Source of the DNA: Micromonospora cabrerizensis
GTDB lineage: Bacteria > Actinomycetota > Actinomycetes > Mycobacteriales > Micromonosporaceae
Reading direction: 5' to 3'
Length of the DNA stretch: 64,000 nt
NCBI RefSeq assembly: GCF_022230955.1
Contig: NZ_JAKKFI010000093.1
Coordinates: 1-64,000 of the forward strand
The position numbers and the translations under genes were made by a program. Shown here in pieces: positions 15,557 through 18,390 of this stretch (position 1 is the first letter of the stretch; each line of letters starts with the position of its first letter). The notes beneath the pieces are model-generated. The model was given only the letters and a program-made list of their open reading frames with translations, did no database searches and was not told the DNA's origin.

Positions 15557-16654
15557 TCAGCGTGCCGGCAGCGCGTCGATGAGGAACACCTGGTCCGGAC
15601 CGTTCGTGCACGGCTCGACCAGCGCCTCGGCCGACACCTCGGTGTCGTCGTCCCGAAGCCCCACGCAGAGGTCCGTACGGGTGGGTCGGATGCGGTACGA
15701 GGTCGGCACGGACCCGGTCGGCTCGAAGCGGAACAGCTGGGACGGGTTGCTCTGGGCGCACTTCGACACGGGTTCGAGCATGTTCCGGCCCGGGTCCTCG
15801 CCCCGGACGGTGAGGCAGCCGGGCCCGTGCTCCGGGTGGTTCCACTTGATGAAGTACAGCCCGCCGGCAGCCGGCTCCACATAGGTGTCCGGCGGGGTGG
15901 CCTCGGCGCAGGAGATCTGGACCGCCACCTGACTCCCGTACTCGCCGGTGCGGTCTCGCCCCTCGGAGACGCAGAGTTGCGGGCTGCGGGCGGGGCGGAT
16001 CTGGCTGAGGAGCGCGTCCGGCCCGATGGTCGGGCTGGCGCTGGCCTCCGGCGAGGCCGACGGATTTCCAGCTGCCGACGACTCTCGCTGCTCGTCGTCG
16101 GGTCGCTGCATCCAGACGCCCACGCCCAGCGCGGCCAGCAGGACGCCGACGAGCAGCACCAGCGGCACCGGCCGGGCGAACCAGCGCGCTCGGGCGGCGC
16201 TCGCGCCTCCCACCCTCGTGGCGTCGGATGGTCGGAGGTCGGGGACGGTGCTGTCGTCGGCGGGCCGGTCGTCGGGGGCGGTGTCGTCGACGGTCTGGTG
16301 GTCGCCTGTGGTGCTGTGGTCGGGTGTGGTGCCGTCGGCTGGCTGGCGGTCCGGCGCGGGCGACGTCGGCGCGTAGGTGCCCACCGCGAGCCGGTGCCGC
16401 GCCCGCAGCCACGTCTCCACCTGATCCTCCGCGCCGCAGGCCCGGACGAACGCGGCCACCACCTCGGGGCGCGGCAGGGTGGATCGGCGCAGAATGTCGG
16501 CGGCGGTGCTGCGGGCCAGCACGTCGCCGGTCGCCGCCGCGCGCTGCTCCAACTGTCGGTACGTGAGTCGCGACCGGTCCTTGAGCCGGCGCAGCAGGTC
16601 GACGAACTCGGCTGGGTCGGTCGCCTCGTCCGGTCGGAGCTCCCCCGTGGTCAT
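15557..16654 (-). CDS. Transmembrane HTH protein with extracellular ricin-like domain
   Basis: A 365-aa protein from the ATG at 16654 (MTTGELRPDEATD). Residues about 12-85 form a helix-turn-helix-like domain (LLRRLKDRSRLTYRQLEQRA, then TLPRPEVVAAFVRACG). A Pro/Thr/Asp-rich linker, a single membrane segment (about 162-182, VPLVLLVGVLLAALGVGV) and an extracellular region follow. The extracellular part (about 220-365) has paired Cys residues and repeated F/W-aromatic ends (SQLFRF, DQVFLI) that suggest a ricin-type beta-trefoil, a sugar-binding fold. The HTH domain matches that of the divergent neighbour at 16908. A membrane-tethered sensor/regulator is inferred, not proven. Confidence 0.7.
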   Translation of the reverse strand: MTTGELRPDEATDPAEFVDLLRRLKDRSRLTYRQLEQRAAATGDVLARSTAADILRRSTLPRPEVVAAFVRACGAEDQVETWLRARHRLAVGTYAPTSPAPDRQPADGTTPDHSTTGDHQTVDDTAPDDRPADDSTVPDLRPSDATRVGGASAARARWFARPVPLVLLVGVLLAALGVGVWMQRPDDEQRESSAAGNPSASPEASASPTIGPDALLSQIRPARSPQLCVSEGRDRTGEYGSQVAVQISCAEATPPDTYVEPAAGGLYFIKWNHPEHGPGCLTVRGEDPGRNMLEPVSKCAQSNPSQLFRFEPTGSVPTSYRIRPTRTDLCVGLRDDDTEVSAEALVEPCTNGPDQVFLIDALPAR

Positions 16655-16706
16655 CGCACGATTGTCCAGAAACCGACGGCGTGGCGGCAAGTTGGCCCAG
16701 GGTGAC

Positions 16707-16759
16707 TGTCCGGGATGGCCGGACAAGATCCGGACAAGCCGCCCTGAGCTGCCCGGACA
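16707..16759. promoter_or_regulatory. Operator-like TGTCCGG/CCGGACA array between two divergent HTH genes
   Basis: A 19-bp perfect inverted repeat, TGTCCGGGATGGCCGGACA (16707-16725), has 7-bp arms and a 5-bp spacer. Two further CCGGACA half-sites follow at 16730 and 16753. Start-to-start spacings are 11 and 23 bp, about one and two helical turns. The array lies 53-105 bp upstream of the start at 16654 and in the same intergenic region as the gene at 16908. Confidence 0.6.
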
Positions 16760-16820
16760 TTGCACCGCGCTGACCAGGGCATTGTTCTCTCCGACGGGCT
16801 TATCTACCGTCGGTTCTCGA

Positions 16821-16849
16821 TGGCCGCACCGTTGTTCGGTGTGCGGCCA
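16821..16849. promoter_or_regulatory. Inverted repeat upstream of the PG-binding HTH gene
   Basis: TGGCCGCAC (16821-16829) and GTGCGGCCA (16841-16849) form perfect 9-bp arms with an 11-nt spacer. It ends 58 bp before the ATG at 16908. It could be a second operator or an mRNA hairpin; nothing in the sequence decides between these. Confidence 0.4.
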
Positions 16850-16907
16850 GGGGGTTTCGGCGGGCGCCGAAGCGGGCCCGAGGACATCAACGACACGGGG
16901 AGATCTG

Positions 16908-18110
16908 ATGGATGACGCTGCCTGGGATCAGCTGACGCAGGTGGCTACGGCGGGGGAGTACGTCGCGCTGCTCCGGGACGTGCGTCGGCGTTCCGGTCTG
17001 ACCTACCGGGAGATCGCCAGACTGGCCTCGGCGGCGGGGCACTGGCTACCGCCGAGCACTCTCGCCACGATGCTGGGTCGGACCACCCTGCCCCGGGAAC
17101 GCACCGTCGTGGCCCTGCTGGTGGCCTGCGGCACGACAGCGGCCGATGTGGAGCGGTGGGTCGAGGCGCGCCGGGACATCGAGGCCCGCCTCGGCGAGCG
17201 GGATCGATGGGAGAACCACGTGATCTCGCCCGCCTCGTCGCCACCCGCCGCCCCCCAGCTGGCCGTGGACGGCGAACCGGCCGCGAACGGCGAGTCGGCC
17301 GCGTACGGCGAACCGGGCACGAACGGCGAGCCGGCCGCGCACAGCGGACCGACCGCGCACAGCCGAACGGCCGCGCACGGCGAACCGGTCGTGAACGGCC
17401 GACCGGTCGCGCACGGCGGACCGGCCGGGAGCGTCGTCGTCCCGGTCCGGCCGGCGCTGCCGCGAGCCACCGCCCCCTGGCCGACCCGCCGTTGGCTTCG
17501 GCTCGCGGTGCTCGCCGTGCTCGGCGTGCTGATGGTCGGGGCGTCCGGGGTGCTGCTTCCCGGTGCCGCGGCCACCGTCGACAGCTCGCCGTCCGACGGC
17601 TGCCCCCTGGTCCTGCGCCAGGGCATGTACGGCCCGTGTGTGCTGGACCTCCAGGAGCGTCTGGTGGCGGGCGGACTGAACGTGCGCGTGGACGGCTGGT
17701 TCGGCCCGGACACCACCGGCCGGCTGATCGTCTTCCAGGCGTTCGGTGGTCTGCCGGTCAACGGCACGGCGGACCGGCGGGTGCTCGACGAGCTGTCGGG
17801 CGCGACGAAGGTGCCGCCCACCTGGACGGAGGACCGGATCGGCAAGGAGCTGCGGCGGGTCTTCCCGGAGGACCCGGGTGCGGCGGTGCAGCTGGCGCGT
17901 TGCCTGTCCGGGTTGGACCCGTACCGCGTGGAGATCGCCGGGGACGGGTCGCGGCGCTGGGGGCTGTTCCAGTTCAGCGACACGGAGTTGTCCCGGCTGG
18001 GCGTCGATCGACGGGCGGCGTTGGAACCGGGTTGGAGCATCGGAGCGGCCCGGCACGTCTGGTCGAGTACCGGCGATCTCAGCCACTGGCGCTGCGATCC
18101 GTCGTCGTGA
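16908..18110 (+). CDS. Transmembrane HTH protein with PG-binding and lysozyme-like extracellular domains
   Basis: A 400-aa protein from the ATG at 16908 (MDDAAWDQLTQ). Residues about 15-90 are an HTH domain homologous to that of the divergent gene (LLRDVRRRSGLTYREIARLA, TLPRERTVVALLVACG). A low-complexity linker rich in Gly-Glu-Pro-Ala-Asn (about 118-175) leads to one membrane segment (about 197-216). A PG-binding type 1 domain follows (about 231-297, LRQGMYGPCVLDLQERL) and then a transglycosylase/lysozyme-like domain with RRWGLFQFSDTEL. The position where family members carry the catalytic Glu (CES) reads CLS, Leu333, so it probably binds rather than cuts peptidoglycan. A wall-sensing regulator is inferred. 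Confidence 0.72.
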   Translation: MDDAAWDQLTQVATAGEYVALLRDVRRRSGLTYREIARLASAAGHWLPPSTLATMLGRTTLPRERTVVALLVACGTTAADVERWVEARRDIEARLGERDRWENHVISPASSPPAAPQLAVDGEPAANGESAAYGEPGTNGEPAAHSGPTAHSRTAAHGEPVVNGRPVAHGGPAGSVVVPVRPALPRATAPWPTRRWLRLAVLAVLGVLMVGASGVLLPGAAATVDSSPSDGCPLVLRQGMYGPCVLDLQERLVAGGLNVRVDGWFGPDTTGRLIVFQAFGGLPVNGTADRRVLDELSGATKVPPTWTEDRIGKELRRVFPEDPGAAVQLARCLSGLDPYRVEIAGDGSRRWGLFQFSDTELSRLGVDRRAALEPGWSIGAARHVWSSTGDLSHWRCDPSS

Positions 18111-18153: not shown

Positions 18154-18390
18154 CCACCCCCGTTCCACCGGGTGACAACGCCGGGCCGCAGTCGGTGGGC
18201 CGTTCGTGTGGTCATCGAGAGCCCCTCCCGCCCGGGACCGGCGACGACCAGGTCACTGCCGGAAGATGGACTGACCGTAGGGGCGTTCGCGCCGTTCGCA
18301 CCCACCGAACAGGGGTCGGCACGGTGTCGAACACCGGCGGGCGCCGACGTCCGAGCAGGACACCGGCGCCCGCCTGGGCGAAGCGTCGGC

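Follow-up and report, generated by a model that had tools for sequence, protein, structure and literature searches.

Divergent genes for two membrane-anchored HTH_31 proteins, one with a lectin-like and one with a lysozyme-like ectodomain, share a conserved palindrome and a linked haloperoxidase gene in Micromonospora

The stretch analysed here, the window, is the first 64,000 nucleotides of contig NZ_JAKKFI010000093.1 of Micromonospora cabrerizensis (assembly GCF_022230955.1). It contains two genes, for which we use the working labels P1 and P2, that are transcribed divergently from starts 253 bp apart. Each encodes an N-terminal helix-turn-helix (HTH) domain, a linker, a single transmembrane (TM) helix and an ectodomain, which is a ricin-type β-trefoil in P1 and a peptidoglycan-binding domain (PGBD) followed by a lysozyme-like domain in P2 (Table 1). 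An earlier note on this DNA had described the two proteins as having homologous HTH domains, one membrane helix each and differing extracellular parts, and the profile, model and conservation data given below bear that description out; its suggestion that they are one-component membrane regulators is supported in part. Three observations go beyond it: the lysozyme-like domain has lost its catalytic Glu, a haloperoxidase gene (deleted in the strain of the window) neighbours the pair, and a palindrome is shared. The names given to genes at the various loci are labels assigned from sequence, and G000 denotes the window's own genome. Comparisons were made with 61 Micromonospora genomes (the genus sample), 121 genomes of the family (the family sample) and 84,980 species genomes (the wide scan), the last of which yielded 109 relatives, with 80 loci kept.

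Table 1. Positions of the two genes, their domains and the candidate regulatory sites in the window
Feature	Positions	Strand	Details	Basis
P1 (HTH_31, linker, TM helix, ricin-type β-trefoil ectodomain)	15557..16654	-	365 aa	Pfam, model, tblastn orthologues
P1 β-trefoil ectodomain	15572..16021	-	about aa 212-361	model, structure match
P1 membrane helix	16106..16159	-	about aa 166-183; flanking charges predict a cytoplasmic N terminus	model, hydropathy/charge
P1 HTH domain	16379..16615	-	aa 14-92, five helices	HTH_31; pLDDT 92-97 (10-residue blocks, aa 11-90)
Operator candidate TGTCCG-N7-CGGACA, between P1 and P2	16707..16725		exact in 11/11 pair loci and 5/5 further named loci
Two further CGGACA half-sites, starts 16731 and 16754	16731..16759	+	11 and 34 bp past the right-arm start
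Candidate P2 promoter TTGTTC, 17 bp, TACCGT	16782..16810	+	putative	read by eye
P2 (HTH_31, linker, TM helix, PG_binding_1, lysozyme-like ectodomain)	16908..18110	+	400 aa
P2 HTH domain	16950..17222	+	aa 15-105, long fifth helix	HTH_31; model
P2 membrane helix	17493..17549	+	about aa 196-214; flanking charges predict a cytoplasmic N terminus	model, hydropathy/charge
P2 peptidoglycan-binding domain	17601..17807	+	aa 232-300	PG_binding_1 E 1.1e-8; VIA-align Z 12-14 to solved PGBDs
P2 lysozyme-like domain	17817..18104	+	aa 304-399	VIA-align to c-type lysozymes
Scar of the lost haloperoxidase gene	18213..18311	-	1-mismatch palindrome 18293-18311 to start codon 18213-18215	alignment with intact promoters

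The first point to note is that both proteins are single-pass, with one hydrophobic segment each, at which a helix is predicted. The flank on the N-terminal side of this segment is the more basic one, which places the HTH domain inside the cell. The AlphaFold models, built from alignments of 16 relatives for P1 and 14 for P2, agree on the same order of parts: the helical N-terminal domain and the ectodomain are modelled with confidence, the linker between them is disordered and the membrane helix has low confidence. The ATG at 16654 is taken as the start of P1, and the N-terminal MTTG or MTMG that follows from it is conserved in 11/11 orthologues.

The HTH domains are clearly related. Pfam HTH_31 scores 33.5 bits in P1 and 35.7 bits in P2 (cut-off 27), and it is matched at E ≤ 0.01 in all 16 aligned P1 relatives and all 14 aligned P2 relatives. 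When the 61 residues of the P1 HTH were searched against the window's own genome at E ≤ 1e-3, only P1 itself and P2 were returned, the P2 match covering 49 aa at 47% identity (E 1.2e-6). The HTH is also the most constrained part of both proteins, with dN/dS of 0.13–0.22 for P1 and 0.19–0.35 for P2, where G000 was compared with eight (P1) or six (P2) of the ten other pair genomes. Constraint is weaker on the ectodomains (0.33–0.76). The P2 linker is the loosest part (0.47–2.08), whilst the P1 linker (0.25–0.61) is not looser than the P1 ectodomain. The same kind of HTH domain also heads large proteins of the genus that look, by eye, like NB-ARC-type NTPases (L052, L054 and L055). In two other genera an HTH like that of P2 is joined in one protein to a trefoil ectodomain like that of P1 (L096 and L097), which suggests recombination between HTH and receptor.

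The ectodomain of P1 is modelled as a 12-stranded trefoil with pLDDT of 75–96 in 10-residue blocks, and six Cys are invariant in the 16 aligned sequences. Trefoil lectins head the list when the model is searched against PDB structures, the best being 2x2s, with a TM-score by target of 0.71. By sequence P1 itself falls below the ricin cut-offs of Pfam (Ricin_B_lectin 17.1 against 29 bits, RicinB_lectin_2 18.1 against 25.6 bits), and a ricin-type match at E ≤ 0.01 is found in 6 of 16 P1 relatives.

For P2, the lysozyme-like domain superimposes on c-type lysozymes with Z of 11–12 and an rmsd of 2.4–2.9 over 95–97 aligned residues (VIA-align), and four Cys of the ectodomain are invariant in 14/14 aligned sequences. 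Pfam recognises SLT_3 in three of the 14 aligned members and SLT in one. The fold match is computed; the equivalence of the catalytic position to Glu35 of hen lysozyme is read from the sequence context. At this position P2 has Leu333 (codon 17904–17906) within ARCLSG, and the 14 aligned relatives of the HTH type have Leu, Gln or Arg, never Glu. We also fetched four homologues that have no HTH, of which one (L145) has no lysozyme domain. The other three (L142–L144) carry the same PGBD–lysozyme ectodomain, 31–33% identical to P2, but differ from it in having, as judged by eye, a signal peptide, which suggests secretion, and in retaining the Glu in 3/3 cases (ARCESG, AKCEST and ARCESG). Since the Glu is lost where the HTH is present and kept where it is absent, the lysozyme domain of P2 is probably a receptor and not an enzyme.

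The wide scan gave the same picture on a larger scale. The 80 loci supplied 81 open reading frames (ORFs), and after exclusion of five without an HTH match, four of which overrun a contig end, 76 remained with both HTH and ectodomain. Hydropathy places a TM segment in 75 of these 76, and Glu is absent from the catalytic position in all 76, although this last count is biased, a Glu-less pattern having been one of the two used in the search; for three of the 76 the residue was assigned by eye, as Leu, Leu and Met. Genera with such HTH-bearing pseudo-lysozymes include Streptomyces, Actinomadura, Amycolatopsis, Kutzneria and Lentzea, among others. In other genera of the family, stand-alone genes for HTH–membrane pseudo-lysozymes (L090, L091 and L093) lie near secreted-looking PG-binding frames, which are possible targets.

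P2 orthologues are present in 11 of the 61 genomes of the genus sample, P1 orthologues (tblastn, at least 54% identity) are present in the same 11, and the two genes are divergent in all of them. In nine of the other genomes P1 is near full length and 54–66% identical to that of the window, and in G054 it lies in two contig pieces, the pair loci of both G052 and G054 being split by contig ends. P1-like proteins of 35–42% identity occur without P2 in G003, G011, G048 and G050. Named records gave 12 Micromonospora loci, all paired: M. tarensis, M. saelicesensis, M. arida, sp. H61, M. noduli, M. alfalfae, sp. MH99, M. lupini, M. arborensis, sp. MW-13, M. parastrephiae and M. chokoriensis. Seven of these lie on contigs already counted in the genus sample, so that the distinct total is 16 genomes, made up of the 11 pair genomes of that sample, G000 among them, together with L168, L169, L171, L175 and L176. 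G123, from the family scan, has no P2 and is excluded from the 16.

Beyond Micromonospora, no linkage between the relatives was seen at the loci examined. In the family sample three genomes from two other genera (G162, G106 and G126) hold relatives of both genes at separate places, as does G114, where both are distant. Ten loci of other genera with P2-type relatives or P2/P1 hybrids have no P1 neighbour, and no P1-type partner was seen at the 68 of the 80 wide-scan loci that lie outside the genus. The divergent pairing is therefore real but restricted to a clade of these soil and plant bacteria. The conservation that the earlier note had raised for the Micromonosporaceae as a whole holds in Micromonospora (in all 11 P2-bearing genomes of the 61, and in five more) and was not seen in the other genera examined, and the lack of any conserved pairing, which that note had named as telling against its reading, was not what we found. 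At one Actinomadura rudentiformis locus (L185, 4525–7002) a P2-type gene stands divergent to another gene of HTH_31 type, with a long C-terminal part that, judged by eye, appears to be soluble; this is a divergent pair of another kind.

Between P1 and P2 lies the palindrome TGTYCG-N7-CGRACA, which is exact in 16/16 distinct genomes. The remaining 59.8 kb of the window have no exact copy and a single one-mismatch site, and 248 kb of other sequence have no exact copy and five one-mismatch sites. The additional half-sites downstream of it are also conserved, CCGGACA from 16730 and CGGAC from 16754 being invariant in all 11 aligned sequences. A candidate P2 promoter follows; although a consensus promoter scanner reported no promoter, its TTGT is invariant and its CTA[GC]CGT conserved across 11 aligned sequences. 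The palindrome thus lies upstream of this promoter, and its position between the two genes, together with the extra half-sites, leads us to propose that the pair is autoregulated.

The gene that adjoins the pair in many of these genomes, between P2 and an ABC permease gene, encodes a product (P0003) with an apparent signal peptide and the domains CBM_4_9 and PAP2. Because PAP2 alone could mean a phosphatase, we used a PDB match to name it: its core matches the haloperoxidase 4cit (phmmer, E 8.6e-30), with alignment of the SGH and SR-x5-H motifs, which we take to be the residues that hold vanadate, so that haloperoxidase activity is predicted. In the genus sample the gene adjoins the pair in 8 of the 11 pair genomes, at full length in G002, G024, G034, G039, G045 and G055 and broken in G029 and G054. 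Close orthologues (at least 75% identity, E ≤ 1e-60) were confined to these eight among the 61 genomes, where each neighbours the pair. The 50 genomes that lack the pair have none, and six of them have only more distant relatives of 51–54% identity. Over the 16 genomes the gene is full length in ten, broken in three (G029, G054 and L176) and gone in three (G000, G040 and G052), G040 retaining a tip of at most 35 residues. In the window itself tblastn gave no significant match to a coding remnant, and the rest of that genome has no orthologue at E ≤ 1e-60; the promoter remains as a scar (Table 1). Neither P1 and P2 nor the haloperoxidase matched a defence system in PADLOC, and an NCBIfam search returned nothing above family cut-offs.

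A second copy of the palindrome is found at the haloperoxidase promoter, placed, as judged by eye, across the −35 region that goes with a TACG[GT]T −10 element. With at most one mismatch it is present at the promoter or scar in 9 of the 11 pair genomes of the sample and in 11 of 15 overall, L176 offering no promoter. In an alignment of 11 such promoters (with G123 included and G052 left out) the inner arms GTTCG...GAAC are invariant, and dinucleotide shuffles of the same sequences, 3300 for each, gave a one-mismatch site in 0.2–0.4% of cases.

The pair and the haloperoxidase gene also behave as a unit, which is observed at three genomic sites and has decayed repeatedly. Ten of the 11 pairs lie at one site, flanked by a DUF402 gene towards pimA-pdxS-pdxT-yebC and, on the other side, by genes for an ABC transporter and a two-component system. 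Among 29 DUF402 loci from 28 genomes, ten have the pair there, 14 have DUF402 adjoining the ABC permease and five have no permease in view. One of the 14, G004, has no pair and has kept at this home site a palindrome of the haloperoxidase type by itself, which looks like a deletion scar. In G055 the home site is empty, and the pair and haloperoxidase gene are found together elsewhere, both palindrome copies having moved along. In sp. MW-13 the pair, accompanied by a fragment of the haloperoxidase gene, is at a third site, and the DNA alignable with the G055 locus amounts to only about 1.5 kb, at the pair. As for decay, P2 is frameshifted in G040, where it reads as two separate frames; in G055 (L070, 8131–8649) it ends just past the membrane helix, leaving an HTH–TM protein with no receptor that is still paired with P1; and in G123 it is missing, P1 being kept along with 140 residues of the haloperoxidase. 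The P1 frame is unbroken in all ten genomes of the genus sample in which no contig end splits it.

Taken together, these data favour the view, to which we assign a probability of roughly 0.58, that P1 and P2 are paired transmembrane transcription regulators that share one operator, regulate themselves and ancestrally controlled the haloperoxidase gene. The presence of HTH_31 and a TM helix in one protein, the conserved divergent arrangement and the invariant intergenic palindrome all fit the one-component membrane regulators that the earlier note had suggested. In the proposed mechanism, the HTH_31 domain of each protein would be anchored at the inner face of the membrane, with a glycan-recognising receptor displayed outside. 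The P1 trefoil, being of the CBM13/ricin type, would bind polysaccharide, and the PGBD and inactive lysozyme cleft of P2 may bind peptidoglycan or chitin-like chains; the wall sugars suggested in the earlier note agree with these folds. Homo- or heterodimers of the HTH domains would then bind TGTYCG-N7-CGRACA, and the second, less strictly kept palindrome would mark the promoter of the CBM4–vanadium haloperoxidase as the likely ancestral target. DNA binding itself, the form of the dimer, the glycan ligands and the sign of the regulation are the elements of this scheme that we infer.

Several results weigh against this proposal. The motif is not specific to the pair, since the exact palindrome occurs in 24/24 genomes, with or without the pair, at 2–9 copies per genome (0–2 for the reversed pattern), and of the five other exact copies in G000 four belong to a dispersed palindromic repeat, the fifth being in a separate intergenic stretch. 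An intact gene does not go with a better conserved haloperoxidase site: the site has at most one mismatch in six of ten full-length cases as opposed to five of five broken or lost ones, and the promoters with two mismatches (G039, G045, L168 of M. saelicesensis and L171 of M. noduli) all precede a full-length gene. The frames of P1 and P2 are intact in the strain of the window despite the loss of the haloperoxidase, which means that the haloperoxidase was not the only target or that the loss is recent. No solved DNA-binding structure was matched when an HTH profile was searched against the PDB by sequence, the profile being a weak one with a single full-length row. Finally, the genomes compared are related, and the counts are not independent. 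The retention of the regulators after haloperoxidase loss, and the looser site at several intact genes, suggest that autoregulation or other targets may matter more.

The dispersed repeat is an imperfect, intergenic palindrome that is present in variants elsewhere in the genome of the window (L162, L163, L165 and L166), has the form GATCGACTCG ... GTGTCCG..CGGACAC ... CGAGTCGATC and mimics the operator motif. As most of the other G000 copies, four of five, are borne on it, the idea of a wider regulon beyond the unit was dropped, and we claim none.

Amongst the alternatives, the one that survives best, though we consider it unlikely, is that the palindrome belongs to another regulator, for example a stress repressor, acting on P1, P2 and the haloperoxidase gene, with P1 and P2 as wall-bound effectors. 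The motif is indeed present in genomes without the pair, and pair-less G004 has its copy at the home site; but that copy resembles a deletion scar, the other G000 copies are mostly those of the repeat, and in G055 the unit relocated with both of its palindromes, so that the regulator must either travel along or be general. Somewhat less probable still is that only P1 or only P2 binds DNA, its partner being a heterodimerising decoy or anti-regulator that tunes the response to a second signal. One palindrome does serve both genes, and P1 is the more persistent of the two, P2 being frameshifted, truncated or missing in the three genomes described above, yet purifying selection acts on both HTH domains and both keep the HTH_31 signature. 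RodZ, a scaffold of comparable plan, has Pfam models of its own, and at E ≤ 1 Pfam returned for P1 and P2 only HTH_31, the ectodomain families given above and two weak matches to unrelated families, with no RodZ-type domain. We give equally little credence to P1 and P2 being RodZ-like scaffolds, whose HTH domains recruit cytoplasmic partners instead of DNA and which link the cell interior to the wall, for although the shared plan and the occurrence of HTH_31-type domains on NB-ARC-like proteins, perhaps as a general adaptor, would suit it, the palindrome is invariant in the divergent promoter region and copied at the promoter of the linked gene, and the distribution is patchy and dispensable (11/61 genomes). 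The other outcome that the earlier note had named as telling against its reading, HTH domains that lack DNA binding, is thereby made less likely but keeps some probability.

A broader generalisation can be put forward tentatively, and we regard it as possible but doubtful: that a Glu-less lysozyme serves as the receptor of a membrane transcription factor in many actinomycetes, acting as a direct switch between wall fragments and promoters, and that one Micromonospora clade has added a lectin twin, so that two glycan signals from outside meet at a single operator controlling a secreted, β-glucan-targeted haloperoxidase, all in one small relocatable unit. Explanations of how Gram-positive filamentous bacteria sense wall fragments or foreign polysaccharide rely mostly on kinases and two-component systems. 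A dead-lysozyme receptor on a membrane transcription factor would, if true, provide a one-protein route from glycan to promoter, and the Micromonospora pair would add a naturally occurring case in which two inputs feed one operator. With its small genes, its 19-bp site and its linked output gene, the system lends itself to work in vitro.

In the literature covered, which took in two surveys in eLife (PMC7159879 and PMC12419801), with most subscription journals lying outside the coverage, no paper describes the architecture or the pair in its title or abstract. Transmembrane transcription regulators (TTRs), the class of ToxR and TcpP, are according to PMC10269533 widespread, single-pass forms being the commonest at about 56%. 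Like P1 and P2 they carry a TM helix in the same chain as the DNA-binding domain; P1 and P2 differ from the class in their HTH_31 type and in their trefoil or PGBD–lysozyme receptors, and in the main text of that paper the terms XRE, HTH_31, peptidoglycan, ricin and divergent do not occur. RodZ, as described in PMC6946637, resembles P1 and P2 in having an XRE-type HTH, a linker, a TM helix and an extracellular domain, but its HTH has MreB as partner and does not bind DNA, whereas P1 and P2 have HTH_31 and a conserved palindrome. The linked gene product matches the vanadium-dependent haloperoxidases 4cit and 1idu (PDB) over the core with the vanadate site, and unlike them adds an N-terminal CBM_4_9 module. 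A parallel to two membrane regulators on one promoter, as a functional analogy only, comes from Vibrio cholerae, in which the TTRs ChiS and TfoS, according to PMC11856585, act jointly at one promoter in the response to the glycan chitin.

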